Of a stretch of DNA of 64,000 nucleotides, positions 41,278 through 60,655 are shown in pieces. This stretch comes from Ensifer oleiphilus. GTDB taxonomy: Bacteria; Pseudomonadota; Alphaproteobacteria; Rhizobiales; Rhizobiaceae. Position 1 is the stretch's first letter, and each line of letters opens with the position of its first letter. The stretch is from assembly GCF_013371465.1 (NCBI RefSeq), contig NZ_JABWDU010000012.1, positions 1 through 64,000 on the forward strand, read 5' to 3'. Both the position numbers and the translations under genes were made by a program. The notes under the pieces are model-generated. The model searched no databases. It was given only the letters and a program-made list of their open reading frames with translations, and had not been told where the DNA came from.

Positions 41278-41755
41278 GGCGCTTCCTTCGATCGATATTG
41301 TATGCATATTGCATGTTTGTCTAGGTTGGTGCAAGCCGTTGTATCTCTGTGCACATCCGACTGGCGAGTAGGTCCACGCCGTCGCAACGCAGGTGATAGC
41401 TGCGAGAAATCCGGTAGCACAAGTGTCGCTATTTCGGTTGTGTCGGAATTCCCTGTCAGTATTCATGAAAACGCGTTGAACCAATGGCCGGATATTGGGT
41501 TGTACTTATCTCGATTGGTCGCACGTGACGCTGCCCATCGTAGCGAGCGTTTGCGGTCGAGATTGACAGGTTTCAATCTCCCGCCATCGCGGCGAATCGT
41601 GTTGGCTATATCGCGCCGCTGACATTTGCGCGAAGGGCAACAATGTCATACGCTTAAGTGGTAACGCGCTCTTCCGGCGATTGTTTTAGCCTTCGATGCG
41701 CGCCAACGAGAAATGCAACAGAGCCGGTCCACATTATGGGCCGCGGAGCAGCGCC
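41278..41755. other. Intergenic region between MocR-type and pentapeptide-repeat genes
   Basis: About 480 bp with divergent promoters. The MocR-side operator candidate is at 41296-41308. The rest shows only short frames with no recognisable product. Confidence 0.5.
41296..41308. promoter_or_regulatory. Operator candidate upstream of the MocR-type gene
   Basis: TATTGTATGCATA is identical to 39828-39840 and sits about 20-30 bp upstream of the regulator start on the minus strand. That position fits repression of its own promoter. Confidence 0.6.
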
Positions 41756-42544
41756 ATGCATATCCCCAAGCAGAAGCCCATTCGTTCGTTTGTCGCAACC
41801 GGGGAGGGTGGGGTCGGCGACCCAATCGGGATCAGGCGCGCCGTTGGCGCGGGCGGCAAACGTTTGGCCCTCGGCCTGTCTGCATTCCTTGTGACGCTCA
41901 CCCTATCGAGCCTCGCCTATGCGGCGAATTGCAAGGATCCGTCGGCGCCGGGCGCCGACTGGAGCGATTGCAACAAAAAACAGTTGATGCTGGGCGGCAT
42001 CGATCTCGAAGGTGGCAACCTCGCCAACACTGATTTCACCCTGACGGATCTGAGAGGTGCCAATCTCGCTGCAGCAAACCTGGAGAAGGCGACGCTGGTG
42101 CGGTCGTCTCTCGCCGGCGCGAAAGCCGACAAGGCGAATTTCGCCAAGGTCGAAGCCTACCGCAGCAGTTTTGCCGGCATCTCCGCCGAAGGCGCGTCGT
42201 TCAACAGCTCCGAACTGCAACGAACCAACTTCAGCGGCGCCAAGCTCACAGGCGCGGATTTCGAGAAGGCCGAACTCGGGCGTGCCAATTTCGACAAGGC
42301 GGTGCTGACAGGCACGCGCTTCCCGATGGCCAATCTGTCGCGCGCCACCTTCTCCGGCTCCAGCTTCGAAGGCCCGATCGACTTCACCGATGCCTTCATG
42401 TTCCTGACGCGCATCGAAGGCGTGGATCTGTCGGCGGCGACCGGGCTTGAGCAGGAACAGGTTAACCTGACATGCGGAGACAGCGCCACCAAGCTGCCGG
42501 CCGGGCTATCCGTTCCGGCCAATTGGCCCTGCCCGGCCGACTAA
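41756..42544 (+). CDS. Secreted pentapeptide-repeat protein
   Basis: This 262-residue protein has a likely signal sequence (LALGLSAFLVTLTLSSLAYA, about residues 37-56) after a basic N-terminus. About 25 pentapeptide repeats of A(D/N)LxX type follow, such as ANLAAANLEKATL and TNFSGAKLTGADFEKAELG, which should form a right-handed beta-helix. Two cysteines near the mature N-terminus (ANCKD and DWSDCNKK) and one pair in the C-terminal tail (LTCGD and WPCPAD) could form disulphides outside the cytoplasm. ATG 41756 has GCGGAGC upstream. No function is known; a gyrase-mimic role is unlikely because of the export signal. Confidence 0.8.
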   Translation: MHIPKQKPIRSFVATGEGGVGDPIGIRRAVGAGGKRLALGLSAFLVTLTLSSLAYAANCKDPSAPGADWSDCNKKQLMLGGIDLEGGNLANTDFTLTDLRGANLAAANLEKATLVRSSLAGAKADKANFAKVEAYRSSFAGISAEGASFNSSELQRTNFSGAKLTGADFEKAELGRANFDKAVLTGTRFPMANLSRATFSGSSFEGPIDFTDAFMFLTRIEGVDLSAATGLEQEQVNLTCGDSATKLPAGLSVPANWPCPAD

Positions 42545-42572: not shown

Positions 42573-43148
42573 TCAGGCGATGTGTTGCTTGGCGGCAATC
42601 GCCAGGCATTCCTTGAAAGCCTCAAGGTCTGTCAGGCGGTCAGCTTCCGCCACTTCGCGCTTCACGAAGGTTCCGCCGCGCGCCAGGATGCCGCCATCGA
42701 GCATAAGGTTGTCGGCCATGTCGAAATCCTCGATGCTGACCCCGTCCAGCCCGGCCATGCGACCGTCCGGACGCAGCTCGGCCTTGCCGCCATAGTGGCC
42801 GTTGAGGATGCGATCGTAGTAGCTGCGCGAAGTGTTGGTGTAGGCATAGACATGGCGGCCGCGGCCGCACATGAAGCCGAGTTCGAAGACCGTTCCGACA
42901 TCGGCGCTGATGCCGCGAAACGGCGTCAGATTGGCGATGATCATGTCGCTGGCCAGCATCATGCCTTCGTCGACGCCGTAGATGGCGAGGCCGCGGGCAT
43001 GCTTGGTGTCGGCCGGCGGGATTTCCAGGTCGCCCGGCACCAGCGGGGTGAAGCCGGCCGCACGGGCAAGTGCTGCCTTTTGCGCCTGGATCTCCACGGC
43101 ATTGCTGAGGAACACTTCAGGCCCGGCCAGATAGACTTTCACGATCAT
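42573..43148 (-). CDS. Nucleoside 2-deoxyribosyltransferase family protein
   Basis: This 191-residue protein has the family start VKVYLAGPEVFLSNA, MMLASDMIIANLTPFRGISA (about residues 62-81), and VGTVFELGFMCGRG, in which the Glu of FELG is the usual catalytic nucleophile position. It would exchange bases on deoxynucleosides or hydrolyse the N-glycosidic bond, in nucleotide salvage. Monocistronic, divergent from the thioesterase gene. Confidence 0.88.
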   Translation of the reverse strand: MIVKVYLAGPEVFLSNAVEIQAQKAALARAAGFTPLVPGDLEIPPADTKHARGLAIYGVDEGMMLASDMIIANLTPFRGISADVGTVFELGFMCGRGRHVYAYTNTSRSYYDRILNGHYGGKAELRPDGRMAGLDGVSIEDFDMADNLMLDGGILARGGTFVKREVAEADRLTDLEAFKECLAIAAKQHIA

Positions 43149-43361: not shown

Positions 43362-43781
43362 ATGTCGAACCAGCCTTTGACCACCTATGTCGGGGTTGCG
43401 CATCCCTGGATGTGCGACACGATGGGCCACATGAATGTACGCCACTACGCTGCGATGTTCGATGATGCCAGCTTCCAACTGCTCGGTCATGTCGCGGGGG
43501 TCGAGGCTGAAGGCGAGCCGGGCAGGGGCTGGGCCGATGTGCGGTCGGAAACGGAATACAAGCACGAAACCAAGGCCGGCTCGCTGATCACTATCCGCTC
43601 GCGGGTCGTCAAGCTCGGCCGTTCCTCGGTGACCTTCGAGCAGATCATGTCAGGCACGCTCGACGACGTCATTCATGCGGTCAACCGAACCGTCACGGTT
43701 CGGTTCGATCTTTTGGCGCGCACGGCGATGGCATTGGAGCCCGCCGCCCGTGCCCGCGCTGAGGCACTGCTTCAGGTTTGA
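43362..43781 (+). CDS. Hotdog-fold acyl-CoA thioesterase family protein
   Basis: This 139-residue protein fits the 4HBT-type hotdog family. The active-site region is CDTMGHMNVRHYAAMFDDAS (about residues 18-37) with the D-x-x-G-H-x-N pattern, and the second half shows the ETEYKHETKAGSLI strand. It would hydrolyse a short-chain or aromatic acyl-CoA; the substrate is unknown. It converges with the LysR gene, 21 bp away. Confidence 0.85.
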   Translation: MSNQPLTTYVGVAHPWMCDTMGHMNVRHYAAMFDDASFQLLGHVAGVEAEGEPGRGWADVRSETEYKHETKAGSLITIRSRVVKLGRSSVTFEQIMSGTLDDVIHAVNRTVTVRFDLLARTAMALEPAARARAEALLQV

Positions 43782-43802: not shown

Positions 43803-44762
43803 TCAGTCCGCATAGATCCGGTCTTCGACCGGGGTTTCGGCGATGAGTGTCTGCAGACCAGCAAGCAGCGCCTTTTCCGCGCGATTCAACGCCTTGTCAG
43901 GGTTTGTCAAAAGAAAGATGTCGATGGCAGGCGGGGCTTCGTAAGGGGGCAGCCGCCAGAGCGCACCATCGGCTACATCGCGACGTGCCACGTGCAAGGG
44001 CAACGGGCCGACGCCCAGGCCGGCCATGATCATCCTGCGGACCTCTTCGAGACTGGAGGATACGCCGACGACGTTGGCATTCAGCTTAGCCTCGCTGCGC
44101 AGCAGCGCCACCGGCCGCAGCGCGTCGGCGATATGGTCGGTGTGAAACGATACCGAAGTCTCGCCTTTGAGATCGGCGAGTTTCAATCCTTCCTTGCCAA
44201 ACAGCCGGTGATGAGGGCCGCAGAAGAAGCCGAAGAACTCACGGAAGACCAGTAGGTAGTCCAGCGCCGGGTCGCGCACGCTGACGAGGCATAGACCAAA
44301 GGATGCCCGCTTTTCCCTGACCTGGCGGGTGACTTCGCCGCTTGCAGCCACTGAGATGTTGAGCGTTGCGCGCGGATAGTCGCGGTGAAACTCCATCAGC
44401 GCACGGTCGAAGATCGGGGAAACCACATGGCTGGCAACGGCGATCGTCACGTGCCCAGTCACGTCGTCGCTGACGCCGCGCACCAGTTGCGGCAGTTGGG
44501 ATATGGTGCCGAAGACCTCGACGGCCTGCTCATAGAGAAGCTGGCCGACTTCGGTAAGGTCGAAGCGGGTCGCATCGCGCTCGACCAGCCTGCGCCCAAC
44601 CCGGTCCTCCAGCCGCTTCAACGCATTGCTGACGCTCGGTTGTTTCAGGTTCAAGCGCTCCGCCGCACGCGTAATGCTTTTGACCTCCGCGATCACCACG
44701 AAGGTGCGCAGCAGGTTCCAGTCTAGCTCCCAGACGAGCCGTTCGGATCGAGGTGTTACCAT
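43803..44762 (-). CDS. LysR family transcriptional regulator
   Basis: This 319-residue LTTR has an N-terminal winged HTH (SITRAAERLNLKQPSVSNAL, about residues 30-49) and a periplasmic-binding-like effector domain. It is divergent from the ABC transporter operon starting at 44904. The 141-bp gap contains a TTGC-N11-GCAA dyad, the LTTR T-N11-A arrangement, so it is the likely activator of that operon. ATG 44762. Confidence 0.92.
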   Translation of the reverse strand: MVTPRSERLVWELDWNLLRTFVVIAEVKSITRAAERLNLKQPSVSNALKRLEDRVGRRLVERDATRFDLTEVGQLLYEQAVEVFGTISQLPQLVRGVSDDVTGHVTIAVASHVVSPIFDRALMEFHRDYPRATLNISVAASGEVTRQVREKRASFGLCLVSVRDPALDYLLVFREFFGFFCGPHHRLFGKEGLKLADLKGETSVSFHTDHIADALRPVALLRSEAKLNANVVGVSSSLEEVRRMIMAGLGVGPLPLHVARRDVADGALWRLPPYEAPPAIDIFLLTNPDKALNRAEKALLAGLQTLIAETPVEDRIYAD

Positions 44763-44797
44763 TCCTGAAATCTATGCCTTCTATTCCCATTATCTAT

Positions 44798-44816
44798 TTG
44801 CGCAATGCTGATGCAA
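44798..44816. promoter_or_regulatory. LysR-type box between regulator and transporter operon
   Basis: TTGC at 44798-44801 and GCAA at 44813-44816 are 11 bases apart, matching the T-N11-A pattern with 4-base inverted arms. It is placed 36 bp upstream of the regulator and 88 bp upstream of the binding-protein start. Confidence 0.55.
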
Positions 44817-44903: not shown

Positions 44904-45686
44904 ATGAAGACCATTTTCTCCGGCCTTTTGGCCGCTACGCTCACCATTGCCGCAACCTTCTCGGCCGTTTCGGCGCGCGCCGATGACCTCGAAGCCGTAA
45001 AATCGGCAGGTGAATTGAAGATCGCGATGAGCGGACAGTACCCGCCGTTCAACTTCGTCAACGAGCAGAACGAGGTCGTCGGCTTCGACGCTTCGATTGG
45101 CAAGGCCATTGCCGAGCGCGTCGGCGTCAAGGGCACTCTGGTGACGACAGCATGGGACGGCATCATCGCCGGCCTGCTCGCCAACAAATACGATACCGTC
45201 GTCGGCTCCATGACCATCACGCCGGAGCGTGAGAAGGTCGTCGATTTTGTCGGCCCGTACTATCACGCCGGCCGCGCCGTCTTTGTTTCGGAAGACTCCG
45301 CCGTTGAGAAACTCGACGAACTCAAGGGCAAGACGCTCGGCGTGACGCTCGGTGAAACCCACGAAAAATGGGCGCGCGAACAGGGCGGCTGGGACGTGCG
45401 CACCTACAAGGGCCTGCCCGAGCTGATGATGGAACTCAAAAGCGGCCGGGTCGATGCGATTGTCGTCGACAACATTCCCGTCATGGTCGCCGTCAAGGAA
45501 ACCGGCGAGAAGGTCCGTCGTCTCGAAACCCCTGATATCGAAGGCGGCAGCGTCGCCATCGGCATTGCCATCCGCAAGAACAATCCGGAGCTGAAGGCTG
45601 CCATGCAGAAGGCGCTCGAAGATATGCTGGCCGACGGCTCCTACGAGAAGATCGCCATGGAATGGGTCGGCAGCGACATCCGCTGA
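44904..45686 (+). CDS. Polar amino-acid-type ABC transporter substrate-binding protein
   Basis: This 260-residue SBP family 3 protein has a signal peptide (MKTIFSGLLAATLTIAATF, cleavage near SARADD). The mature domain shows LKIAMSGQYPPFNFVNEQ, VVGFDASIGKAIAERVG and GSMTITPEREKVVDFVGPYY (about residues 103-122), typical of amino acid and opine binders. AAGGAA precedes ATG 44904. First gene of a nine-gene rightward operon; the likely ligand is the amino compound processed by the downstream enzymes. Confidence 0.92.
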   Translation: MKTIFSGLLAATLTIAATFSAVSARADDLEAVKSAGELKIAMSGQYPPFNFVNEQNEVVGFDASIGKAIAERVGVKGTLVTTAWDGIIAGLLANKYDTVVGSMTITPEREKVVDFVGPYYHAGRAVFVSEDSAVEKLDELKGKTLGVTLGETHEKWAREQGGWDVRTYKGLPELMMELKSGRVDAIVVDNIPVMVAVKETGEKVRRLETPDIEGGSVAIGIAIRKNNPELKAAMQKALEDMLADGSYEKIAMEWVGSDIR

Positions 45687-45701
45687 TCCAAGCCTCGCCT
45701 C

Positions 45702-45737
45702 GTCTCCGGCCGCCCGCTGACGGTCGCGGCCGGAGAC
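45702..45737 (+). other. Hairpin after the substrate-binding-protein gene of the second ABC operon
   Basis: GTCTCCGGCCGC and GCGGCCGGAGAC form a perfect 12-bp stem with a 12-base loop in the 79-bp gap before the permease gene. No T-run follows, so it is likely an RNA-stability element separating binding-protein and permease messages. Confidence 0.6.
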
Positions 45738-45765
45738 CGTCGCATCCTCCCCCCGGAGTTTCCTC

Positions 45766-46413
45766 ATGGACTTTTCGCTGGTGCAGCGCGTCTTCCCGTT
45801 CTTCGTGGAAGCGGCGTGGATCACGATCGAGATATCGGCGCTTTCGCTGGCGCTCGGGCTCATGGTCGCCTTTCTCGTGGCGGCGGCAAAGATGTCGCGC
45901 TCCTTGCCTTTGCGCATGTTTGGTTCCGCCTATGTCAGCCTGTTTCGCGGCACGCCATGCCTGATCCAGCTGTTCGTCCTCTATTTCGGCGGACCGCAGA
46001 TCGGCATCAACCTGGAGCCGTTTGCCGCAGGGGTGATCGGCCTCGGGCTCAACATCGGCGCCTATATGGCCGAAGCCATTCGCGGCGCGATCATGTCTGT
46101 TGATCGCGGTCAGACCGAAGCTGCGCGCTCGATCGGCTTCAGCCGGTCCCAGACCATGCGCAAGGTGGTGTTGCCGCAGGCCGCACGATTGATGATCCGC
46201 CCGCTCGGCGTCAATGCGGTCGCTCTGGTGAAGGGTTCGGCGCTGGTCTCGACGATCTCTGTGGTCGAGCTTACCTACACCGCCCAGCGCTACATCGGCT
46301 CGACCTACAAGCCGTTCGAGATCTTCGGCGTCGCCGCCGTGCTCTACATGCTCATCGTTTATGTCGTCGCTCGGATCGTTGATCTCATCGACCGTCGCTA
46401 CGCCATAGTGTGA
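45766..46413 (+). CDS. Amino acid ABC transporter permease (HisM/HisQ type) 1
   Basis: This 215-residue permease has about five transmembrane helices. It contains the family motif FRGTPCLIQLFVLYFGGP (about residues 61-78) and the EAA loop EAARSIGFSRSQTMRKVVLP (about 117-136). It pairs with the next permease. It is 13 bp upstream of that gene. Confidence 0.93.
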   Translation: MDFSLVQRVFPFFVEAAWITIEISALSLALGLMVAFLVAAAKMSRSLPLRMFGSAYVSLFRGTPCLIQLFVLYFGGPQIGINLEPFAAGVIGLGLNIGAYMAEAIRGAIMSVDRGQTEAARSIGFSRSQTMRKVVLPQAARLMIRPLGVNAVALVKGSALVSTISVVELTYTAQRYIGSTYKPFEIFGVAAVLYMLIVYVVARIVDLIDRRYAIV

Positions 46414-46426
46414 GGGGGAGAAACGC

Positions 46427-47086
46427 ATGCAAGGTCTCGATTTCAGCGTCGTTCCGCCCTATGCCGATATTCTCTGGATGGGCGTCTGGTGGACAGTTGT
46501 CCTCACCGTCTCGGCGGCCGCGATCAGCTTCGTCTTCGGCGTGGTTTTCGCCCTCGTCGTGCTTTATGCGCCCAAGACGGTCGCATTGCCGGTGCGCGCA
46601 TTCATGTGGCTCTTCATGGGCACGCCGCTCTTGTTGCAGCTGTTCCTGATCTATTACGGGCTCGGGCAACTCGGCTTCAAGATTCCGGCGCTCGTCGCCG
46701 GCATCATCGGCCTCGGCCTCCATTTCGCGGTCTATAATGCCGATATTCTGCGCGCCGGTATTGTCGCGGTGGATGTCGGCCAGATGGAAGGTGCGCGCAG
46801 CCTCGGTTTCGGCCGCTTTCAGACGCTGCGCTACTTCATCGTCCCGCAGGCCGTGCGCAATACCATTCCGGCGATGGGCAACAACCTGATCGTGCTCCTG
46901 AAGGAGTCCTCGCTAGTGTCGATCATCGGCATTGCCGAACTGGTGCATGCCGCGCAGCTTGCGATCAGCGAAACCTTCCGACCGTTCGAATTCTACATCA
47001 CGGTTGCCGCCCTTTATTACATCCTAAACCTCGTGCTCGAAGCGGGTCTGCGCCGGGTCGAACAGAACGTGGAGGTATCACGATGA
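46427..47086 (+). CDS. Amino acid ABC transporter permease (HisM/HisQ type) 2
   Basis: This 219-residue paralogue of the previous permease has [18 protein letters not shown] (about residues 64-81) and the EAA loop [20 protein letters not shown] (about 122-141). It forms the second half of the membrane channel. Its stop overlaps the ATPase start as ATGA. Confidence 0.93.
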
Positions 47087-47847
47087 CCGCAGAGCGACCC
47101 ATGGTTGAAGTCAAGGGGGCACGTAAGGCCTATGGCGAGCTTCAAGTCCTGAAGGGCATCGACCTGTCGGTGGCCCGCGGGCAGATCGTCGCCATCATCG
47201 GCCCGAGCGGCTCCGGCAAGAGCACGCTACTACGCTCCATCAATCATCTCGAAACCTTGAATGGCGGCGAAGTCTGGCTCGACGGCGTCCAGGTCAACCA
47301 GGCCCTGCGCGGCCAGGCCTTCGAGCGCCATATCAATGCGGTGCGCCAGCAGATGGGCATGGTGTTCCAGCACTTCAATCTGTTCCCGCACCTGACGGTG
47401 ATCGAAAACGTTACGATGGGGCCCATCATCCTGAAAGGCATGGCGAAGGTGGCTGCCCGCGAACTGGCGGTCGAGCTCCTTTCGAAGGTCGGGCTCGCGG
47501 AAAAGGTCGATGCCTATCCCTCGCGGCTTTCCGGTGGCCAGAAGCAGCGCGTGGCGATAGCCAGAGCGCTTGCGATGCAGCCGAAGGTGATGCTCTTCGA
47601 CGAGGCGACCTCGGCGCTCGACCCCGAACTGGTCGACGAGGTCAATGCGGTGATGAAGCAGCTTGCTGCCGAGCACATGACGATGCTGATCGTCACCCAC
47701 GAAATGCGTTTTGCCGGAGAGGTTGCCGACCGTGTGCTGTTCATGGATGGCGGCGTCGTTGTCGAGCAGGGGGCCCCGAGCGAAATCTTCCGCGAGCCGA
47801 AACAGGAGCGCACGCGAACCTTCCTCAAGAAGTATCTTGCAGCGTGA
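47083..47847 (+). CDS. Amino acid ABC transporter ATP-binding protein
   Basis: This 254-residue ATPase has Walker [16 protein letters not shown] (about residues 35-49), Q-loop [11 protein letters not shown], signature [16 protein letters not shown] and Walker [17 protein letters not shown] (about 164-179). The sequence is typical of polar amino acid importers (HisP/GlnQ). Its stop overlaps the next start (TGATG), coupling transport and enzyme genes. Confidence 0.95.
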
Positions 47848-49493
47848 TGGATGCGATGAAGACGAGCAGCAACGAGTTTCCCGATTTCGGGTTGACGCCG
47901 GAGCAGCGCCGCGAAGCGGTGCTCGGCCACTATTACGAATATCCAGGAATGGATGGCGAGCGCGGCGAGATCTGGTGTTACACAGACGCCTATGCCTACC
48001 CCCCGGGTGCAACCGTCCGGCTTCAGGTGAGTTCGACCGCGCCCCAGTTCGCGCTGGAGATCGTGCGAGACGGCGCCGTCGAAACGAACGTCATGACACG
48101 GCGGGGCATCGCCGCCCGCTGGCAGGACACGCCTGATCAATGTTCCGTCGTCGGCTGCGGCTGGGAGACCACGCTTGAATTCAATGTGGACGAGAGCTGG
48201 CCCTCTGGCGCCTACCGCATCACCCTGACGGCCGAAGGTCGTGACGGGGCGTCCATTCGCTGCCAGCACCTCTTCATCGTCCGCCCTGAGGCCGGACGCA
48301 AGCCGGGCCGCGTGCTGCAGGTGGCGGCGACGGGATCCTGGACCTCCTACAACACCTGGGGCGGATCGAACCACTATCAGGGTATCACCGGTCCCAACCG
48401 CGACCAGTATGCAACGACTGTGAGTATTGAGCGGCCGTTCTGCCGCGGCTTTGTCACGCTCCCGACTGACGCACCGCGGGTGCCGCTGGAGATCTACTCG
48501 CCGATTGCGGTAGCGCCACGCTATCCCCACATGGAATGGGCCTATGCCAACGGCTATTCCAAGAAATACGCTTCCTCCGGATGGGCGAGCTATGACAGTC
48601 ATTTCTTTCGCTGGGCCGAGCGCGAAGGTTATGCCGTCGATCTCGCCAGCCAACACGAGCTGCATTTCAACCCGGAAATCCTCGACGGTTACGATTGCGT
48701 CGTCTTCGTCGGTCATGACGAATACTGGACCTGGGAGATGCGCGACGCGGTCGACAGCTACGTCGAGCGCGGCGGCCATGCTGCGCGCTTTGCCGGCAAC
48801 TTCATGTGGCAGACGCGTCTGGAGGACGGCGGCAAGCGGCAGGTGTGCTACAAATATCGCGCGCGCGCCGAGGACCCGGTCTATCGCTCCATTGAGCCGA
48901 CGCGCACGTCCGGATCCTGGGAGGCGAAGGAGATCGGACGTCCCGGCTCTTCGACCTTCGGGCTCATTGCCACGCGCGGGCTTTATGTCGGCTGGGGCGG
49001 CTGCGCCCCGCGCGGCGCCCGCGGTTTTCCGGTCTATCGCCCGGAGCATTGGGCTTTTGCCGGAACCGGTATTTACTACGGTGACATCCTCGGCGCGGAA
49101 GGCCATGCCTTCGGCTATGAAGTCGACGGCCTCGATTACATCATCCGTGGCGGGCTGCCTGAGCCGACGGAGGATAGCGGTGCCCCCGATGGTCTGGAAA
49201 TCCTGGCGCTCGGCATGTCGTCGCTGAAGGAAGAAAGTGCCGACATACCCGCCGACGATCAGTTCCTCTCCGACGCGGACGCCAAGTTCGTCGCGGAAAC
49301 GCTGATCGGCGATGCCGGCGAAGCCTCCGTCGACAAGGTCAAGCGTGGCTGCGGCATGATCGTCAATTTCCCGCGTGGCAAGGGCGAGGTGTTCCACGCC
49401 GGCAGCTGCGAATGGGTGGCTGCCCTGAAACGCGGCGACGCGATGGTCGAACGCGTCACCGCCAATGTTCTCAACCGCTACCTCAAACGCTGA
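47847..49493 (+). CDS. N,N-dimethylformamidase large-subunit-like protein
   Basis: This 548-residue protein resembles the beta (large) subunit of N,N-dimethylformamidase. An N-terminal beta-rich domain (about residues 20-150) precedes a larger domain carrying SWTSYNTWGGSNHY (about 168-181) and DCVVFVGHDEYWTWEMRDAV (about 285-304), and a C-terminal part with GCGMIVNFPRGKGEVFHAG. True DMFase is an iron enzyme hydrolysing a formamide C-N bond and also has a small subunit; no small-subunit gene is seen here. Activity on an amide or N-formyl compound is therefore inference. The start is ATG 47847, overlapping the preceding TGA; GTG 47844 is the alternative. Confidence 0.75.
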   Translation: MDAMKTSSNEFPDFGLTPEQRREAVLGHYYEYPGMDGERGEIWCYTDAYAYPPGATVRLQVSSTAPQFALEIVRDGAVETNVMTRRGIAARWQDTPDQCSVVGCGWETTLEFNVDESWPSGAYRITLTAEGRDGASIRCQHLFIVRPEAGRKPGRVLQVAATGSWTSYNTWGGSNHYQGITGPNRDQYATTVSIERPFCRGFVTLPTDAPRVPLEIYSPIAVAPRYPHMEWAYANGYSKKYASSGWASYDSHFFRWAEREGYAVDLASQHELHFNPEILDGYDCVVFVGHDEYWTWEMRDAVDSYVERGGHAARFAGNFMWQTRLEDGGKRQVCYKYRARAEDPVYRSIEPTRTSGSWEAKEIGRPGSSTFGLIATRGLYVGWGGCAPRGARGFPVYRPEHWAFAGTGIYYGDILGAEGHAFGYEVDGLDYIIRGGLPEPTEDSGAPDGLEILALGMSSLKEESADIPADDQFLSDADAKFVAETLIGDAGEASVDKVKRGCGMIVNFPRGKGEVFHAGSCEWVAALKRGDAMVERVTANVLNRYLKR

Positions 49494-49505
49494 CAGAGAC
49501 CGGAT

Positions 49506-50873
49506 ATGCTCAAGACGACAGCTTCCAACGAACGGCCCCCTTCACACCTGTTCTACCAGTCGCGTCTGCGTCGGCCGCTGGTCGACCGGGCCGAGGGCAT
49601 CTATCTCTGGGACCAGGATGGCCGCCGGGTGATCGACGGCTCGAGCGGCGCGATGGTGGTCAATATCGGCCACGGCAATCGCAACGTGCTCGAGGCGATG
49701 AAGCGGCAGATGGACCGCGTGACCTTCGCCTATCGCCTTCACTTCGAAAACGAACCGGCGGAAGAATTGGCGCGCCGCGCCGCCGAAAAACTGCCCGAAG
49801 GCATGGACAAGATCTTCTTCGTTTCCGGCGGGTCGGAGGCGGTCGAATCCTGCCTGAAGCTCGCCCGCCAATGGGCGGTGGCGACCGGCCAGAAGGACCG
49901 CTGGAAGGTGATCTCGCGCTTTCCGTCCTACCACGGCGGCACGCTTGGTGCTCTCGCCATCACTGGCTACGCGGCGCTTTCCGATCCGTTCTCGCCGATG
50001 ATGCGCGAAATGCCGAAAGTACCGGCACCGACCGCCTATCTCGACCGCGACAACCTGACGATGGAGCAGCGCGGCATCAAGTATGCCGACATGTTGGAAG
50101 ACAAGATCCAGTCCGAAGGGCCGGAAAGCGTGCTTGCCTTCATCATGGAACCGATCGGCGGCGCGTCGACCGGTGCCTTGGTGGCGCCTGACAGCTATTA
50201 CCGGCGCATCCGCGAGATCTGCGACAAATACGGCATCCTCCTGATCCATGACGAAGTCATGAGCGGGGCGGGCCGCACCGGGAAATTCCTCGGCGGCGAT
50301 CATTGGGACTGCAAGCCCGACCTGATCGCGCTATCGAAGGGCTTTGCCTCGGGCTATTGCCCCCTCGGTGCGATGGCGGCTCCGTCGAGGCTGGTTCAGC
50401 CCGTGCTCGACGCCGGTGGTTTCCAGCACGGCTTCACCTATGCCGGCAATCCGCTTGCCTGCGCTGCCGGTTTGGCGGTGTTGGATGAAATCGATCGCCT
50501 CGGGCTCATCGACAATGCGGCTGTCATGGGCGACGCGCTCAAGGCAGAGCTGGTTGCGCTTTCCGAGCGCTTCCCGTTTATCGGCGATGTCAGGGGCAAG
50601 GGCCTTCTGCTTGCCGCCGAGTTCGTCTCGGATCGCGAAACGATGAAGCCGCTGCCGAAGGAATTGAATGCGCACCAGCGGGTCGTCGATCTCGCCTATG
50701 AGCGTGGGCTGATCATCTATTCCAGGCGAACCCGCGGCGGCGTCGAAGGCGATCATTTCCTGGTCTGCCCGCCGATGATCATCACCCGGGAGCAGATCGG
50801 CGAGATCGTTGCCATCCTTGGCGATGTGCTCGAGCAGCTTGCGACCGAGCTTAATCTTCCCGTCAACCGCTGA
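49506..50873 (+). CDS. Class III PLP-dependent aminotransferase
   Basis: This 455-residue omega-aminotransferase family enzyme shows DGSSGAMVVNIGHGN at the substrate side, FFVSGGSEAVESCLKLAR (about residues 103-120) at the PLP-phosphate site, LLIHDEVMSGAGRTGKF (about 239-255) with the PLP aspartate, and LIALSKGFASGYCPLGAM (about 273-290) with the Schiff-base lysine. It would move an amino group from an omega-amino acid or diamine to pyruvate or 2-oxoglutarate. It sits 12 bp after the dimethylformamidase-like gene. Confidence 0.92.
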   Translation: MLKTTASNERPPSHLFYQSRLRRPLVDRAEGIYLWDQDGRRVIDGSSGAMVVNIGHGNRNVLEAMKRQMDRVTFAYRLHFENEPAEELARRAAEKLPEGMDKIFFVSGGSEAVESCLKLARQWAVATGQKDRWKVISRFPSYHGGTLGALAITGYAALSDPFSPMMREMPKVPAPTAYLDRDNLTMEQRGIKYADMLEDKIQSEGPESVLAFIMEPIGGASTGALVAPDSYYRRIREICDKYGILLIHDEVMSGAGRTGKFLGGDHWDCKPDLIALSKGFASGYCPLGAMAAPSRLVQPVLDAGGFQHGFTYAGNPLACAAGLAVLDEIDRLGLIDNAAVMGDALKAELVALSERFPFIGDVRGKGLLLAAEFVSDRETMKPLPKELNAHQRVVDLAYERGLIIYSRRTRGGVEGDHFLVCPPMIITREQIGEIVAILGDVLEQLATELNLPVNR

Positions 50874-50883
50874 GATCGACACC

Positions 50884-51831
50884 ATGACGAAAACCAAGAC
50901 GTCGCGCAGGAAGGTCATCATCACCTGCGCGGTGACGGGCTCGGTGCATACGCCGACCATGTCGCCCCATCTTCCGATCACCCCGGACCAGATCGCCGCC
51001 GAGGCGATCGCGGCGGCCGAGGCCGGCGCCTCGATCCTGCATCTGCATGCGCGCAACCCTGTTGACGGGCGCCCGTCGGCCGACCCTTCGCTGTTCATGC
51101 AGTTCCTGCCACGCATCAAGCAGTCGACCGATGCGGTCGTGAACATCTCGACCGGCGGCTCATCCTTGATGGCGCTGGAAGATCGGCTCGCTGCATCGTT
51201 GCGGGCCGAGCCAGAGATGTGTTCGCTGAACATGGGTTCGATGAACTTCGCGCTGTTTCCCGCACTGGATAAACCCGCCGAATGGAAACATGCCTGGGAG
51301 CCGGAGCTGCTGGAGGCGACGCGCAGCTCGATCTTCAAGAACACCTTCGCCGATATGGAATTCATCCTCACCCGGCTCGGACAGGGATGCGGCACACGGT
51401 TCGAATTCGAATGCTACGATGTCGGCCATCTCTACTCGCTGGCACATTTCCGTGACCGTGGGCTGGTTTCCGGCCATCTGTTCATCCAGTTCGTCTTCGG
51501 CATCCTCGGCGGCATCGGCGCCGATCCGGAGAACCTGACGCATATGAAGCGGATCGCCGACAAGCTCTTCGGCGACGACTACTCGTTCTCGGTGCTGGCT
51601 GCCGGCCGGCACCAGATGCCGATGATCACCATGGCGGCGGCGATGGGCGGCAACGTGCGGGTGGGTCTGGAAGACAGCCTCTACAATGGCCGTGGGCAAC
51701 TGGCGACCAGCAATGCCGAACAGGTCCACCGGATCCGCACCGTCCTCGACGCCTTGTCGCTGGAGGTTGCCACCCCTAAGGAAGCACGTGAACTTCTCGG
51801 CCTCAAGGGCGGAGATCAGGTGGCATTCTGA
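50884..51831 (+). CDS. BKACE (3-keto-5-aminohexanoate cleavage enzyme family)
   Basis: This 315-residue protein is a TIM-barrel enzyme of the BKACE/Kce family (formerly DUF849), which cleaves beta-keto acids with acetyl-CoA to give acetoacetate and a new CoA ester, using zinc. Visible motifs are VIITCAVTGSVHTPTMSPH (about residues 10-28), ASILHLHARNPVDGRPS (zinc histidines, about 48-64), VNISTGGSS and VRVGLEDSLY near the C-terminus. Placement after an omega-aminotransferase suggests that the keto product feeds into this enzyme. ATG 50884 is 10 bp after the previous stop. Confidence 0.9.
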   Translation: MTKTKTSRRKVIITCAVTGSVHTPTMSPHLPITPDQIAAEAIAAAEAGASILHLHARNPVDGRPSADPSLFMQFLPRIKQSTDAVVNISTGGSSLMALEDRLAASLRAEPEMCSLNMGSMNFALFPALDKPAEWKHAWEPELLEATRSSIFKNTFADMEFILTRLGQGCGTRFEFECYDVGHLYSLAHFRDRGLVSGHLFIQFVFGILGGIGADPENLTHMKRIADKLFGDDYSFSVLAAGRHQMPMITMAAAMGGNVRVGLEDSLYNGRGQLATSNAEQVHRIRTVLDALSLEVATPKEARELLGLKGGDQVAF

Positions 51832-51885
51832 CACCGGAGCTCGGGCGAGATCGCCGGTAGCTTCCGGGCGTCAGCATCAAGGGGG

Positions 51886-52395
51886 ATGATCGTGACGACA
51901 ACGCAGAGCTTGACGGCCGATATCCGCATTCGCACCGGGGAAATCGGCGACGCGGAAACGATACACGCAACGATCCAGGCCATGGGCCGCGGGCTCGATA
52001 TGGCCGGCAAGGTGACTTGCACGGTTGATGACTATCGCCAGTTCGGCTTCGGCCCAGACGCCGCCTTCAGCAGCCTGATTGCCGAAGTGGATGGAGGTTT
52101 TGCCGGTCTTTGCCTGTTCTTTCCGATCTTTTCGACCTGGCGCGGGCGGCCGGGCGTGTTCATCCAGGATGTCTATGTTGACGATCGCTTCCGTGGACTC
52201 GGTATCGGCGAGCGCCTGTTGCGGGAAGTGGCGGCCTGGTCGAAGGCGAGGGGCGGAGACTATCTGCGGCTGGAAGTGGACGTGGAGAACGTGGCCGCGC
52301 AGCGCCTTTACGAGCGGCTCGGCATCACCTGGCAGACGAAAGACCGCGCCCACGCCGCCTATGGCGATGCCTTCGTGGCACTCGCCGGAAAATGA
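51886..52395 (+). CDS. GNAT family N-acetyltransferase
   Basis: This 169-residue GNAT protein has the acetyl-CoA motif A as VFIQDVYVDDRFRGLGIGER (about residues 87-106; R-x-x-G-x-G/A type) and motif B as LEVDVENVAAQRLYERLG. It would acetylate an amine from acetyl-CoA. It is next to a deacetylase-like gene, so the pair might add and remove acetyl groups on the same amine. GGGGG precedes ATG 51886. Confidence 0.9.
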   Translation: MIVTTTQSLTADIRIRTGEIGDAETIHATIQAMGRGLDMAGKVTCTVDDYRQFGFGPDAAFSSLIAEVDGGFAGLCLFFPIFSTWRGRPGVFIQDVYVDDRFRGLGIGERLLREVAAWSKARGGDYLRLEVDVENVAAQRLYERLGITWQTKDRAHAAYGDAFVALAGK

Positions 52396-52425
52396 AAGTC
52401 ATAAGACGCAGGAATTGGAGAGAAC

Positions 52426-53457
52426 ATGAAAGCCTTCTATGCAGAGGAACAGAAGCGACACGATCCGAAGGCTTTCCTTTCGAGTGGCGCGCCGCAGCCG
52501 AACCCGGAGCAGCCGGAGCGGGTCGAGCGGCTACTCACCGGCGCCCGCGATGCCGGATGCACGATCCTTCGACCGGGTAATCACGGCCTCGGCCCGATCG
52601 CCGCCGTGCACACACCCGAGTATCTGGATTTTCTCGAACATATCTACGCTCGCTGGCAGCGGATCGCGGAGGCCTCGGACGAGGTGATCCCAAACATCCA
52701 TCCGCTCGCTCGAGATGGGCGATACCCGGCGTCTGCCGTGGGGCAGGCCGGATATCATATGGCCGACACCGCCTGTCCGATCTCCGGAGAAACCTGGGAG
52801 AGCGTGCGCTGGAGCGCCTGGAGCGCGGTCGATGCGGCGGATGCGGTGATGTCAGGCGATCGCGCCGCCTACGCACTCTGCCGGCCGCCCGGCCATCACG
52901 CCTTTGCGGATGTCGCGGGCGGCTTCTGCTTCCTCAACAATTCCGCCGTCGCCGCTCAGCGCTTTCTGTCGAATGCGGCGCGCGTCGTGATCCTCGATAT
53001 CGATCTTCATCATGGCAACGGTACGCAGGGCATCTTCTACCAACGCGCCGACGTGCTGACAGTCTCGATCCACGCGGATCCCGTGCGCTTCTATCCCTTC
53101 TTTTGGGGGCATGTCGACGAGCGTGGCGAGGGGCCGGGGCTCGGCTACAATCTAAACCTGCCGCTTGAGCGCAAGTCCGGCGACGCCGAATTCCTTGCAG
53201 CTCTCGATTTCGTCTTCCGCCGCATCCGTGCCTACGCACCGGACGCGCTCGTCGTGGCGCTCGGCCTCGACGCCTTCGAAGGCGACCCCTTCGGCGGCCT
53301 GTCCGTGTCGACGCCAGGCTTTGGAAAGATCGGTGCGGCGATCGCCGGCCTGGGCCTGCCGACGGCCATCGTTCAGGAAGGCGGCTACCTCTGCGATGCG
53401 CTGTCCGACAATCTTACATCCTTCCTGACAGGCTTCGGCACGGCAGCAAAGCTCTGA
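52426..53457 (+). CDS. Histone deacetylase family protein, acetylpolyamine amidohydrolase-like
   Basis: This 343-residue zinc amidohydrolase has RPPGHHAFADVAGGFCFLNN (about residues 146-165), the zinc ligands in VILDIDLHHGNGTQG (about 183-197), a third ligand in GLDAFEGDPFGG (about 281-292), and QEGGYLCDALSDNL with the catalytic tyrosine. The short N-terminus (MKAFYAEEQKRHDP) is like acetylpolyamine amidohydrolases. It would free the amine from N-acetyl-diamines or polyamines. GGAGAG precedes the ATG. Last gene of the operon, convergent with the LysR gene. Confidence 0.9.
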   Translation: MKAFYAEEQKRHDPKAFLSSGAPQPNPEQPERVERLLTGARDAGCTILRPGNHGLGPIAAVHTPEYLDFLEHIYARWQRIAEASDEVIPNIHPLARDGRYPASAVGQAGYHMADTACPISGETWESVRWSAWSAVDAADAVMSGDRAAYALCRPPGHHAFADVAGGFCFLNNSAVAAQRFLSNAARVVILDIDLHHGNGTQGIFYQRADVLTVSIHADPVRFYPFFWGHVDERGEGPGLGYNLNLPLERKSGDAEFLAALDFVFRRIRAYAPDALVVALGLDAFEGDPFGGLSVSTPGFGKIGAAIAGLGLPTAIVQEGGYLCDALSDNLTSFLTGFGTAAKL

Positions 53458-53492: not shown

Positions 53493-54443
53493 CTATTGCG
53501 TCAGCAGTGATGTCGATGTGATTGTTTTAGCAATGTCTTTCCCGCGACGCACCGGCAGATGGAACGTCTCGCCAGCGTCGGGATGCAGTCGGCTTGCCTC
53601 GTCGATAAAACCGCGGATCAGCGGCAGATGGCGCCGCTCGGCGAGGCAGATCGCGTATTCGTCGATGACCTCTTTGGCGTCATCGATCGGCACGAAGGAA
53701 AGCCTGGCGTCGTGGCCGAATTCGAGGTCGGCAACCACCCCGAAGCCAACGCCATTGGCGATGGCCTCGCGCACGCCTTCGCGCGAGGAGATCTCGACAA
53801 GCTGATGAATCGAGATGCCGTGGTCGGCGATGTTCTTCTCGAAGATCTCGCGGGTGCGCGAGCCGCGCTCGCGCATGACGAAGGAGAGACCTTCGAGGTC
53901 CTTCATCGTGACCCCGTCGCGCGCTGCCAACGGGTGGGATGACGGCACGCAAAGGCCGAGCCGCATGCTCAGAAAGTGAACGCCGTGCAGGCGCGGATCA
54001 TCGGGGATCTGCGCCGTGATCGCCACGTCCGCGCGATAGTCGATGATCTGGTCGATGACGCGGGCGGAGTTGTCGACGGCAAGAGAGAAGGTCAGTTTCG
54101 GCCGGTCGACCTTCAAGCGCGAGAGGATCGGCAGCGCCAGGATGGGGCCGTCGGCAGCAACGCGCAGATGCCCGCCATTCACACCGGCTTCGCCGCGGAG
54201 GAACGCGTTGGCCTCCTTCTCCGCTTGGAACAGCCGCGAGGTGATCTCGAAGAGGCGCTCGCCATGGGCGCTGAGGCTGACGCCGCGTGCCTTTCGATCG
54301 AGCAGGTTCTGGCCGCAATCCGCTTCCAGTTCCCGCACGTGCTGCGACAGGGTCGACTGGCTGATCGCCATGTCGCGGGCGGCTTGGGAAAAGCCGCCGG
54401 ACAGGGCGACGATGTGAAAGGCTTTCAATTGAGTAATCGACAT
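53493..54443 (-). CDS. LysR family transcriptional regulator
   Basis: This 316-residue LTTR starts MSITQLKAFHIVALSGGFSQ, with HTH ARDMAISQSTLSQHVRELEA (about residues 22-41) and an effector domain containing HGVHFLSMRLGLCVPSSHPL. It converges on the amine operon 36 bp away and is divergent from the giant RTX gene, across 263 bp. It may regulate either neighbour. The ATG at 54443 is used because the LTTR match starts there; the frame continues to 54584. Confidence 0.9.
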   Translation of the reverse strand: MSITQLKAFHIVALSGGFSQAARDMAISQSTLSQHVRELEADCGQNLLDRKARGVSLSAHGERLFEITSRLFQAEKEANAFLRGEAGVNGGHLRVAADGPILALPILSRLKVDRPKLTFSLAVDNSARVIDQIIDYRADVAITAQIPDDPRLHGVHFLSMRLGLCVPSSHPLAARDGVTMKDLEGLSFVMRERGSRTREIFEKNIADHGISIHQLVEISSREGVREAIANGVGFGVVADLEFGHDARLSFVPIDDAKEVIDEYAICLAERRHLPLIRGFIDEASRLHPDAGETFHLPVRRGKDIAKTITSTSLLTQ

Positions 54444-54706
54444 TGCTTCCGGTTCTGTTGCCCGCGGGCATGGCCTGTTGGATCGATGCGGCATCATTGT
54501 CGGAGAAGCTGACAGCCGCATGACACAAGCAGTCGTGACATCTGCCGGAGCCCGGCGATGTGGGATGAAACCGATGGCAGCCATCGGAAAACGCTATGGC
54601 TGTTTTACGTTTTGTTAAGCAACTGTCATCTGCGCGGTAAGCGTGGCGGTTAACGGTGACGCACGGCCAAGAGCCGATCCCGTTCACCTTTAGAGAGAAA
54701 GCCGAC

Positions 54707-57700
54707 ATGACTTCCTCCCCCAATTCGATTGCGACTCCGATCCAATCCTCCCCCGATTGGCTCCTGAACATTCCGCGCGTGCAGGCCCAACAGGGCATAC
54801 TCGTGTCGCCCGGTGGCACCGGCACCGTGTCGTCCTACAGCCTCGTCTATGACGTCTATTTCCCGTCCGCCGGCTCCAGCGGCTGGATCCCGTTCCTGCA
54901 GACGGACGTCACCAACACGTCGGACGGCGACATCTTCGGTAAGGTCGGTGGCGAGAGCTTCGGCCTCGGCATCAACAGCGATTATCGCGGCTCTGCCAAG
55001 CTCGATGCCTGGAACCGCATCGGCCTGACGATCGACAAGGACACCAGCGGCGGCGTCTCGATGAAGAAATACATCAACGGCGATTTTGTCGCCGAACAGA
55101 AGATGACCGGTTCGCTGGCTGCCCGCTTCACCATCGACAAGGCTAAGGGCTTCCTGATCTTCGCCGACGAAGACGGCGAAACGTCATCGGGCTACCTCAG
55201 CAACTTCCTCTTCATCGAAAAGGTCCTGACCGGTTCGGAGCTGTCGGCGCTCGGCAAGGCCAAGCCGGAGGGCATCGTGCCGGACGCGCTGAAGACCGAC
55301 GCGCTCACCTCCAACGGTACCGAGTTCCGTTTCGGTGAAGGCTCGACCACGCCGGCCTTCGGGCAGGGTTCCCTCAGTGGCCAAGGCACCACCGTGACGA
55401 CGACGACGCCGGCATCGGCCGGCATTCCGGCCGTCGGCCAGGACACGACGAACCCCAACCCGGGCTCCGTCGTTAAGACCTTGGCCATCAAGGACATGAT
55501 GGTCACGCCGGATGCGGCCAATGTGACAATCGACCTGTCGCAGCACTTCTCCGGCGATAACCTGACCTTCACGGTGCAGAACAGCAAGGGTGAAGTGCTG
55601 AATGCCGTCCTCACCAACGGCAACAAGCTGGTGCTGGATTTCGCCGCACTCGGCCATTCCGACGTCCGCGTAACGGCAGCCGATCCTGCCGGCCACGTTG
55701 TCACCGACGATTTCCGCGTCCGCGTCGCTGGTGCGAATGCCTATACGATCGCCGTGTTCCCAGACACCCAGGACTACACGTCCAACGATGGCATCAAGCA
55801 CTTCTTCGGCGACATGACTCAGTGGCTGGTCGACAACCGCCAGAGCCACAACATCGTCTTCATGACCCATGTCGGCGACATCACCCAGAACAACCTTTCC
55901 GGTCAGTGGGACATTGCAGAAGCAGCCCTTCGCAAGCTCGACGGCAAGATCCCTTACGCGCTCCTGCCGGGCAACCATGACCAGGCGAACGGCGGCAATG
56001 CCGCAGACCACTCGTCGATCCACCTCGATCAGCGTTTCTCGCCCGACAAGCAGACGGCGACCAATCCGGGCACCTTCGGCGGCGCCTACGATCAGGAACT
56101 GATGAGCGCCCGCAACACCTACAGCACGTTCACGGCGCCTGACGGCACCAAGTGGCTGTCGATCTCGCTCGAGTTCGGCCCGCGTGACGACGTGATCCGT
56201 TGGGCAGGCGATGTCATCGAGGCCCATCCCGACTATCGCGTCATGCTCGCCACCCACTCGCTGACGAGCTATGCCGGCCGGCAGGACAATCTTGCCCTAC
56301 CGCTTTATGACGAAGGTGCCGGCTACGATTATGGCATGCGCAGCGACCAGCGCGGCGCCAATGATGGCGAATATGTTTCGCGCGAACTGCTCGCCCGCTA
56401 CCCGAACATCGTCATGACCTTCTCCGGTCACATCTTCGGCGATGGCGCTGAAACCGACATCACCTACAACCAGTATGGCGAGCCGGTGTTCCAGTTCCTG
56501 GTCAACTACCAGAACGGCGTGTCGCGCGAGATCACCGGCAACGGCAACGAGGCCAAAGGCAACAACGGCGGCAACGGCGCCATCCGCCTGATCACCATTG
56601 ACCCCGACAACAACCGCATTTCCACGGAAACCTACTTCACCGGCTTTGACGACTACCTCGACGGCTTCCGCACCAAGCCGGAACTCGATCGTGACGGCCT
56701 GACCGGTTACTACCGTGGCCATCAGGAAGTGTTCGAAAACATCGACGTCAGCGGCGGCAAGGCCCGCGCCATGGCCGAAGCCGGTGACGACATCATCGCC
56801 GACGCTGCGGCCGGCGCCTCTTCCGCCAATGTCGCGCTGTCCGGCGCCAAGTCGCTGCTGCCGGCAAGCGTCAAGAGCTGGGTATGGACCAACGAAAATG
56901 GCGATGTCGTCGCCGAAGGAAAGGACGCCCGCGCCGAACTGGAACTTGGCAAGCACAAGCTGACGCTGACCACGACCGACTTCAACGGCATCAAGACCAG
57001 CGACACGGTAGACGTCATTGTCCGCGGCGACCGTACGCTGCTGGTCGAGACCTTCAACGACGGCAATACCAATGGCTGGGCGACCGATATCGGGGCTGCT
57101 AACGGCAACACCGGCAACTTCCTGCTCAAGGGAACGGTCTTCTCGCGTCCGACCGGAGCAGTCGGGCTTGCCGCACCGGAGGCAGCGCTCTTCGATCAGA
57201 GCGATGCCGCCCGCAACAAGCTGGTCTTTGTCGGCGAAGGCTCGTCCACCTGGACGGATTACGTCTTCGAGGCATCGCTGACGCAACTCGACAACGACAC
57301 GATCGGCGTTCTCTTCTACTACAAGGACGCCAACAACCACTACCGCTTCACGCTCGATGGCGAGACGAACCGTCGTCAATTGGTCAAGGTTGCCAATGGC
57401 GTAGAGACCATCCTTGCATCGGTGAATGAAGGTTCGCCCTACAACATGGAAATCCCGCTGACGGTTGCCGTCACCGGCGGCGTCATCAACATTTTCCTTG
57501 GCGACAAGAATGTCTTTGCCGGGCCGGTCACTGACACCAGCGCACCGCTTTCCGGCGGCACGGTCGGTCTTTACTCCAGCGGCCAGCGCGCTTCGGTCTT
57601 CGACGACATCGTCGTCACCAGGGCAGACACGACGGCAAAGGCCGGCATCGACCAGCGGACCTACGACATCGACGGCGACGGCAAGGCGTCCGTGAAGCTC

Positions 57701-60646: not shown

Positions 60647-60655
60647 CCAAAACGA

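Follow-up and report, generated by a model that had tools for sequence, protein, structure and literature searches.

Which compound would a bacterium take up and degrade with an operon that joins an amino-acid importer to a DMFase-like protein, a class III aminotransferase, a beta-keto acid cleavage enzyme (BKACE), a GNAT acetyltransferase and an HDAC-type deacetylase? Nine such genes lie on the + strand at positions 44904-53457 of a 64,000-nucleotide stretch of Ensifer oleiphilus DNA, here called the window. We propose that the genes of this locus, under LysR control, serve to break down a beta,omega-diamino acid, with L-beta-lysine or its N6-acetyl form as the likeliest substrate, and put the probability of the full route given below at about 0.5. 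The general logic, in which a capped beta-amino acid would be converted to a beta-keto acid and then to an acyl-CoA and an acid, is in our view very probable. The argument draws on the observed gene content, conservation, linkage, pattern of gene replacement and a common regulator box.

Gene content and proposed route

An initial annotation, made without database searches, had described nine same-strand genes with tight or overlapping junctions. The coordinates agree: junctions range from -4 to +54 bp, the sole exception being 79 bp after the gene for the solute-binding protein (SBP), and the domains proposed (SBP, permeases, ATPase, DMFA2_C, aminotransferase, BKACE, GNAT and HDAC-type) were all upheld by Pfam. 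A thioesterase gene adjoining the divergent regulator LysR1 had been overlooked. The features are as follows (aa, amino acids).

43362..43781, + strand, hotdog-fold thioesterase, 139 aa (PF13279 4HBT_2, 7.3e-14)
43803..44762, - strand, LysR1, divergent regulator (PF00126/PF03466)
44788..44807, no strand, operator-like box CATTATCTATTTGCGCAATG (conservation, genome-wide uniqueness)
44904..45686, + strand, family 3 SBP of a polar amino acid importer (PF00497, 1.5e-39)
45687..45765, + strand, intergenic hairpin after the SBP gene (fold -37.1 kcal/mol)
45766..46413, + strand, importer permease 1 (PF00528, 2.4e-24)
46427..47086, + strand, importer permease 2 (PF00528, 1.2e-18)
47083..47847, + strand, importer ATPase (PF00005, 1.6e-37)
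47844..49493, + strand, compact DMFase-like protein (gene: DMF), 549 aa (PF20254, DMFA2_C, 1.4e-67)
49506..50873, + strand, class III aminotransferase (AT; PF00202, 3.6e-95)
50884..51831, + strand, BKACE (PF05853, 9.2e-109)
51886..52395, + strand, GNAT acetyltransferase (PF00583, 1.1e-17)
52426..53457, + strand, HDAC-type, acetylpolyamine amidohydrolase-like (APAH) deacetylase (PF00850, 1.2e-73)
about 53493-54443, LysR2, convergent, beyond the operon end

The BKACE start was taken as 50884; an alternative longer frame from 50809 overlaps the AT gene. A simple scan found no terminator-like sites on the + strand inside the operon. The hairpin between the SBP and permease genes is unusually stable (z -4.32; 0 of 200 shuffles were equally good) and may keep the binding-protein mRNA in excess.

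On our proposal the ABC importer would bring the compound in and GNAT would acetylate its distal (omega) amine, which would block cyclisation of the later 3-keto compound and leave it uncharged. The AT would then turn the beta-amino group into a ketone, giving 6-acetamido-3-oxohexanoate from beta-lysine, and BKACE would use acetyl-CoA to convert this into acetoacetate and 4-acetamidobutyryl-CoA. The hotdog thioesterase would free 4-acetamidobutyrate, from which the HDAC-type hydrolase would strip the acetyl group to leave 4-aminobutyrate. The DMFase-like protein would be an accessory amidase, probably freeing the diamino acid from an N-acyl or amide conjugate, or trimming such a conjugate. We infer the substrates, the order of the steps and the assignment of enzymes to amides from the evidence that follows.

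Linkage of the aminotransferase to beta-keto acid enzymes

A search seeded with the AT (385 genomes of one class, E <= 1e-170) gave 20 genomes with a match, the window's own included, and thus 19 other loci; fetched comparison loci carry L-numbers. BKACE was nearby in 15 of the 19, and a 3-oxoacid CoA-transferase pair stood directly after the AT or the GNAT gene in three (L178, L182 and L183). One or the other lay beside the AT or one gene away in 18 loci; L175 has neither. A thiolase gene follows in L183 and likewise in the plasmid locus L206. Linkage of the AT to one or other of these enzymes, in some loci along with thiolase, makes a beta-keto acid very likely as the AT product, and such a product in turn implies a beta-amino acid as substrate. 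Beta-lysine is a well-known natural beta,omega-diamino acid.

Every one of the 19 loci contained at least one candidate amide hydrolase, counting DMFase-like, APAH, M20 and creatininase-like proteins. APAH was found in nine, an M20 deacylase in six (L170, L171, L172, L182, L183 and L185), a DMFase-like protein in four and a creatininase-like protein in one (L178, below the cut-offs of its models). L185 alone has both APAH and M20, as expected if the two are interchangeable in function. The presence of GNAT together with a deacetylase suggests that an amine probably receives a cap that is taken off again later. The initial annotation had proposed amide hydrolysis, transamination and BKACE cleavage, a skeleton well supported by the 18 linked loci and the thioesterase gene present in many loci. 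Its order, deacylation first, is given up here: GNAT is now placed to cap the distal amine, with APAH removing the cap at the end.

As a control, we searched 15 stretches around other class III ATs of the same genome. None gave a match to BKACE, GNAT, APAH, DMF, the thioesterase, CoA-transferase, M20 or thiolase; at the edge of L218 there was a 29% match to the L206 amidohydrolase. These stretches covered ~6 kb on each side of the AT (L214 was cut) and most AT-seeded loci ~8 kb; the same few queries were used on the two sets and would miss unrelated equivalents.

Modular conservation of the gene set

The second set of loci was seeded with the DMFase-like protein and consists of the best 80 of 424 matches; it leans to close relatives, and nine loci are cut near a contig end. 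AT was present in 74, APAH in 74, GNAT (at least 40% identity) in 72 and BKACE in 44. All four importer genes were found together in 28 loci, and 23 had the complete set of AT, APAH, GNAT, BKACE, importer, LysR1 and thioesterase; 14 further loci had DMF, AT, GNAT and APAH plus BKACE. By our filter DMF stood alone in five, two of them cut by contig ends and another, L031, with a 41% identical AT on the opposite strand. Rearrangement is seen in Microvirga L076, where a BKACE-AT pair, a LysR1 relative and a thioesterase lie nearby, and in Ferirhizobium L013, where APAH is followed by a different class III AT and another SBP gene.

The gene order recurs in many genomes of several families. We considered that loci without BKACE might be compensated from elsewhere in the genome; for 13 of the 30 BKACE-less loci the genome was tested, all 13 held a 60-63% identical BKACE and none closer, and the idea was set aside. 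Together with the pattern of presence over the 80 loci, this indicates that BKACE, importer and DMF behave as modules rather than as a fixed block. An obligatory pathway of all nine genes was likewise rejected, since DMF, BKACE, GNAT and the deacetylase are each absent or replaced in related loci. What survives of the nine-gene unit first described is a recurring core, in which DMF is optional and BKACE replaceable or missing.

The thioesterase gene tends to occur with the importer. It was found in 25 of the 80 loci, including 24 of the 28 in which the importer is complete; all 44 loci that have DMF, AT, GNAT and APAH but lack the importer were without it. In Ochrobactrum/Brucella-type loci it lies directly after APAH; in L015 the APAH frame ends at 14515 and the thioesterase frame starts at 14512, an overlap of 4 bp. 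We take the protein to be the putative acyl-CoA hydrolase of the pathway.

Annotated plasmid records show the same exchange of parts. Shinella L204 carries importer, AT, BKACE, GNAT, deacetylase, LysR and, beside the LysR gene, a thioesterase relative (43% identical over 123 aa); Phyllobacterium L235 carries AT, BKACE, GNAT and deacetylase. DMF is not annotated in either. Pararhizobium L207 has LysR, DMF, AT, BKACE, GNAT and deacetylase. In Rhodobacteraceae M382 (L206) the importer and AT are joined by CoA-transferase A/B, an ArgE/DapE deacylase and thiolase. S. medicae L232 has importer and DMF, then LysR (50% identical to LysR1), CoA-transferase A/B, M20 deacylase, thiolase, GNAT and a different, FumI-like AT.

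One plasmid connects the set with lysine 2,3-aminomutase. In Rhizobium CB3171 (L210) two genes annotated as KamA family/lysine 2,3-aminomutase lie ~18 and ~9 kb upstream of the AT, and AT, a BKACE remnant, GNAT and deacetylase lie downstream of both. The remnant (L210:24451-24852, 133 aa, annotated hypothetical, Pfam BKACE 3.4e-10) is truncated and sits between AT and GNAT. Both KamA-like proteins match B. velezensis AblA at 33-35% identity, in each case along a part of the sequence. A KamA-family gene on another Rhizobium plasmid (L228:3197-15802) lies near an adenylation-domain protein and a type I polyketide synthase, possibly a natural product cluster based on a beta-amino acid.

A common operator-like box

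LysR proteins typically bind sites with a T-N11-A motif, and the initial annotation had pointed to such a box and to a LysR gene at either end of the operon. Both regulators and the box are there. The T-N11-A at 44793/44805, between LysR1 and the operon, sits within a longer conserved box of the form CATT-N12-AATG. The full box, CATTATCTATTTGCGCAATG, is the sole site in the 6.76 Mb genome at up to 2 mismatches (a reversed-pattern control gave 0), and when the window was shuffled 100 times no match at up to 3 mismatches arose, so that it is more than a chance occurrence. Its core, ATTATCTATTTG, was exact in 36 of 52 regions upstream of LysR1 relatives and present with at most 1 mismatch in 41; the 52 include three pairs in which the same place was fetched twice.

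LysR1 was found at >60% identity in 29 of the 80 DMF-seeded loci, and a relative of 51-63% identity in 15 of the 19 AT-seeded loci; none was seen in the stretches of L170, L171, L172 and L178. LysR2, at 79-97% identity, was limited to 5 of the 80 loci, all Ensifer or Sinorhizobium. It therefore looks like a local neighbour and was rejected as a member of the set.

Assignment of the individual enzymes

The closest solved chains to the SBP are amino-acid binding proteins, and with its two permeases and ATPase the family 3 SBP makes up a complete polar amino acid ABC importer. The best solved chain for the AT is 3I4J, the structure entry for YodT according to excerpts of PMC6522883.

BKACE scored 363.4 bits with its profile PF05853 (cut-off 24.8). 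The nearest solved chains are 3e02 and 3e49, both uncharacterised, followed by P. denitrificans BKACE15 (8rio, 8rip, 9hnf), which aligned over nearly the full length (8rio, 1.8e-114). The FECYD motif aligned with that of 8rio and, by counting on the alignment, keeps Tyr173, a residue thought to be catalytic in the P. denitrificans enzyme (PMC12871164, in part). The enzyme is predicted to turn a beta-keto acid into acetoacetate and a CoA ester. Since the acetyl-capped chain is uncharged, it would suit this enzyme, which exceeds the NF053538 cut-off (522.7 bits against 430) and whose solved relative BKACE15 takes uncharged substrates: those reported as tested were uncharged beta-keto acids (PMC11961710, in part). 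The physiological role of BKACE15 itself is unknown. A BKACE survey labels one group 'hydrophobic and non-charged polar' (PMC4922564).

The APAH scored 248.5 bits with PF00850, and its best solved chain was 3men (1e-98). The zinc-site motif HHGNGT and the stretch GLDAFEGDP align with 3men, 9gkz and 6phr. We propose that an omega-acetamido acid would be its substrate instead of acetylated polyamines.

Relation to the Bacillus kam operon and other known systems

The closest relative of the gene set that we found is a Bacillus-family operon (L226 and L227) with the order AT, CoA-transferase A, CoA-transferase B, M20-type 'peptidase', ablB and ablA, in which ablB is annotated 'putative beta-lysine N-acetyltransferase' and ablA lysine 2,3-aminomutase. 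We take this kam operon to be yodT-yodS-yodR-yodQ-yodP-kamA. It shares with the window a class III AT of one wider tree group, a GNAT, a beta-keto acid step and an amide deacylase, and the sister loci L182 and L183 carry AT, GNAT, CoA-transferase A/B and M20. The window differs in having BKACE for CoA-transferase, which occurs as an A/B pair only in sister loci, and an HDAC-type deacetylase for M20; it adds an importer, a thioesterase and the DMFase-like protein, and its operon contains no kamA. Parts found in other loci resemble the Bacillus proteins in sequence: identity to the 'peptidase' is 33-36% for the M20 deacylases of L170, L182 and L206, and the CoA-transferase subunits of L182 and L206 match their Bacillus counterparts at 45-50%.

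The window AT matched the B. velezensis kam AT at 308 bits (38.5%), against at most 236 for its 15 relatives in its own genome, which the kam AT in turn matched at no more than 215. In a maximum-likelihood tree of 48 rows chosen by us, the 28 operon ATs formed one group (100/98) within a group of 34 (99/95) that includes two Bacillus kam ATs. Of the own-genome relatives, 13 of the 15 were long enough to be used, and none fell in the group of 34. Excerpts of PMC6522883 describe B. subtilis YodT as uncharacterised and the role of KamA as undetermined.

Each step of the proposed route also has a counterpart in the aerobic L-beta-lysine pathway of Pseudomonas B4. The Barker group reportedly described its enzymology, without genes, in about 1979-81; the steps are said to run from 6-N-acetyl-beta-lysine through 3-keto-6-acetamidohexanoate, 4-acetamidobutyryl-CoA and 4-acetamidobutyrate to 4-aminobutyrate. 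For every one of them the locus holds a candidate gene. The two systems differ in kind of evidence, enzymology there and genes alone for the window. To our knowledge, the transaminase and the deacetylase of the pathway (EC 2.6.1.65 and 3.5.1.63) are orphan activities. Carnitine breakdown uses BKACE together with a betainyl-CoA thioesterase (CdhA/B/C) and so resembles the window in pairing BKACE with a hotdog thioesterase; its ketone comes from a dehydrogenase, whereas here it would come from an aminotransferase. No description of the gene set or pathway was found among the papers listed in the literature searches, a weak negative given that most subscription journals lay outside their coverage. 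The initial annotation knew of no described pathway with exactly this set; the kam operon has to be added as a related system.

The compact DMFase-like protein

The DMFase-like protein carries a DMFA2_C domain (PF20254, 229.2 bits against a cut-off of 27), as do DMFase and N-acetyl-(R)-beta-phenylalanine acylase. A single-sequence search ranked the acylase first (2.1e-13), and a profile search ranked DMFase first (2.8e-23 vs 3e-21 for the acylase). The profile alignment to long DMFases covers the C-terminal domain (hhalign probability 99.8), the window protein being 549 aa long against ~775 aa. No DMFase small subunit was seen among the nine genes by Pfam, and no dedicated search for one was made.

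The iron ligands of DMFase are Tyr399, Tyr440 and Glu521, and His519 is essential (PMC7686228, in part). Tyr399, Glu521 and His519 align with Y169, E293 and H291, which are identical in all 13 aligned compact sequences, that of the window included. The Tyr440 motif Y..H.DG.G is present in 9 of 10 long relatives and absent from all 81 compact sequences (reading frames for these counts were chosen by homology), leaving the DMFase set of iron ligands incomplete. The motif GHDEY was found in 81 of 81 compact sequences. Y227, which is nearly invariant, may stand in for Tyr440. The protein is probably an amide hydrolase with an altered iron site, and of all parts of the system it is the one most likely to hold something new. 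A bolder suggestion is that the compact proteins form a new class of amidases with a rebuilt iron site, which would free beta-lysine or a similar diamino acid from naturally occurring conjugates, for instance beta-lysyl antibiotics or N-acyl osmolytes; we regard this as distinctly doubtful.

The closest genome match, in Ensifer adhaerens Lc04, is 96% identical. Near-full matches (at least 1050 bits) occurred in 10 of 398 genomes of a sample of the phylum, the window's own among them, all in its family. At 33-57% identity, the 15 distant loci L121-L135 contained no BKACE, GNAT, APAH, thioesterase or CoA-transferase; weak matches were limited to AT in L134 and L135 (26-27%) and M20 in L122 (24%). 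In two of them, L127 (6757-13091) and L128 (9567-15261), the distant DMFase-like genes lie beside a different class III AT and, by eye, a GntR-like regulator. L127 has a long and a compact gene in tandem, and its AT is very close to the aminopentol aminotransferase FumI (6hbs, 7.4e-137). On three Rhizobium plasmids (L236, L237 and L238) DMFase-like genes of 64-66% identity accompany an importer, AT, a member of the Xaa-Pro peptidase family, Lrp and M20, with ornithine cyclodeaminase or EutB in two of the three, a cluster resembling those for ectoine utilisation.

Weighing the proposed route against other explanations

Several observations weigh against the beta-lysine route. Thirty of the 80 DMF-seeded loci, mostly Mesorhizobium, have DMF, AT, GNAT and APAH without BKACE, importer, LysR1 or thioesterase; four of the 19 AT-seeded loci have DMF, AT and BKACE without GNAT, APAH or M20. 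No relative of the window thioesterase was seen in the 19 AT-seeded loci. At L136 (4942-6528) a DMFase-like gene 74% identical to that of the window had no AT, BKACE, GNAT or deacetylase partner in the 15 kb fetched. Ten of the AT-seeded loci, from other alphaproteobacterial families (L174, L176, L177, L179, L180, L181, L182, L183, L184 and L185), carry a DauA-like D-amino acid dehydrogenase that the route does not need; the L182 copy matched 3nyc at 4.7e-99, and a RidA-like gene was noted by eye in L174. This recurrence points to a different substrate or an additional step. The AT falls below the cut-offs of its two best NCBIfam equivalogs (PRK07483, 453.8 against 485 bits; PRK06917, 426.5 against 535), the NCBI name of NF053538 gives 3,5-dioxohexanoate as substrate, and no similarity between the GNAT and AblB was detected. 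In the AT tree the Bacillus kam ATs pair with L031 and L013, outside the operon clade. The CB3171 region is rich in transposases and remnants and is a single case. With TIGR03820, lysine 2,3-aminomutase, the window's genome gave no match at E <= 1e-100 (weaker ones were not listed). Across Pseudomonadota, KamA-like matches were found at 23 places in 21 of 398 genomes. The surroundings of the 18 such loci fetched contained no copy of the operon's AT, BKACE, GNAT or deacetylase; a CoA-transferase pair was present in L201. This last negative is weak, because every KamA match lies under the model cut-off.

In the scheme of the initial annotation the imported substrate is an N-formyl or N-acetyl amino compound other than a diamino acid. 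The DMFase-like or the HDAC-type enzyme would deacylate it before transamination and BKACE cleavage, with GNAT a side activity. This scheme accounts for the linkage of AT and BKACE. It suits L167-L169 and L173, which have importer, DMF, AT and BKACE but neither GNAT nor APAH, and one of the two solved DMFase-like relatives is the N-acetyl-(R)-beta-phenylalanine acylase. We nevertheless think this scheme unlikely, as it leaves unexplained both the recurrence of GNAT and deacetylase in the DMF-seeded loci and the likeness to the kam operon. If acetylpolyamines were instead deacetylated and beta-alanine transaminated to malonate semialdehyde, BKACE would yield formyl-CoA and acetoacetate. The HDAC-type hydrolase is indeed closest to acetylpolyamine enzymes; in each of the nine AT-seeded loci with APAH, another ATPase (33-37% identity) lies near the AT, and in L176, the one importer inspected, the binding protein is weakly PotD-like (3.1e-11). 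The related BKACE15 acts on malonate semialdehyde, yet this is called a non-native substrate (PMC11961710, in part). The importer in the window belongs to the amino-acid type, and Pfam found no aldehyde dehydrogenase or polyamine oxidase among the nine genes; we hold a polyamine route to be very improbable.

An ectoine-like pathway for an N-acetyl alpha,omega-diamino acid, with the DMFase-like protein as an additional enzyme that opens an amide or ring, is suggested by the importer ATPase, just below the EhuA cut-off (342.3 against 345.4 bits), and by the gene company of the 64-66% relatives on the three Rhizobium plasmids. An alpha-diamino acid, however, yields no beta-keto acid, so that BKACE, CoA-transferase with thiolase, and thioesterase would all be unexplained, and no Xaa-Pro-type ectoine hydrolase is present among the nine genes. 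The chances of such a pathway seem to us slender indeed. That the genes are neighbours by chance, or share regulation without forming one pathway, would be in keeping with the many genomes in which several parts are missing or replaced and with the close, partnerless DMFase-like gene of L136. Against it stand the recurrence in several families with the order kept, the replacement of parts by functional equivalents, the common operator box and the control stretches empty of such partners, and we give it almost no credence. The beta,omega-diamino acid route is the reading that we prefer.

Neighbouring sequence

Upstream of the thioesterase gene lie a pentapeptide-repeat protein (41696-42544) and a nucleoside 2-deoxyribosyltransferase (42573-43148), with relatives only in L001-L008 among the 80 DMF-seeded loci. 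Beyond LysR2, a 1996-codon open frame (54656-60646) overlaps long frames on the opposite strand, such as 58277-60715; four frames scanned within 55184-61739 gave no Pfam match.

Implications

If the proposed route is right, the locus supplies candidates for the genes behind aerobic beta-lysine breakdown, a pathway whose reactions were reported decades ago, and suggests a job for the Bacillus kam operon. The underlying logic would be one of protection, cleavage and deprotection with exchangeable modules: BKACE or CoA-transferase plus thiolase for the beta-keto acid, and an HDAC-type or M20 deacetylase for the cap. The locus also draws attention to the compact DMFase-like proteins as a subfamily whose iron site is altered. 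Should these proteins prove to be the new amidases considered above, plant-associated bacteria would carry a complete scavenging system, comprising importer, amidase, acetyl-capped cleavage and decapping, under one LysR box.

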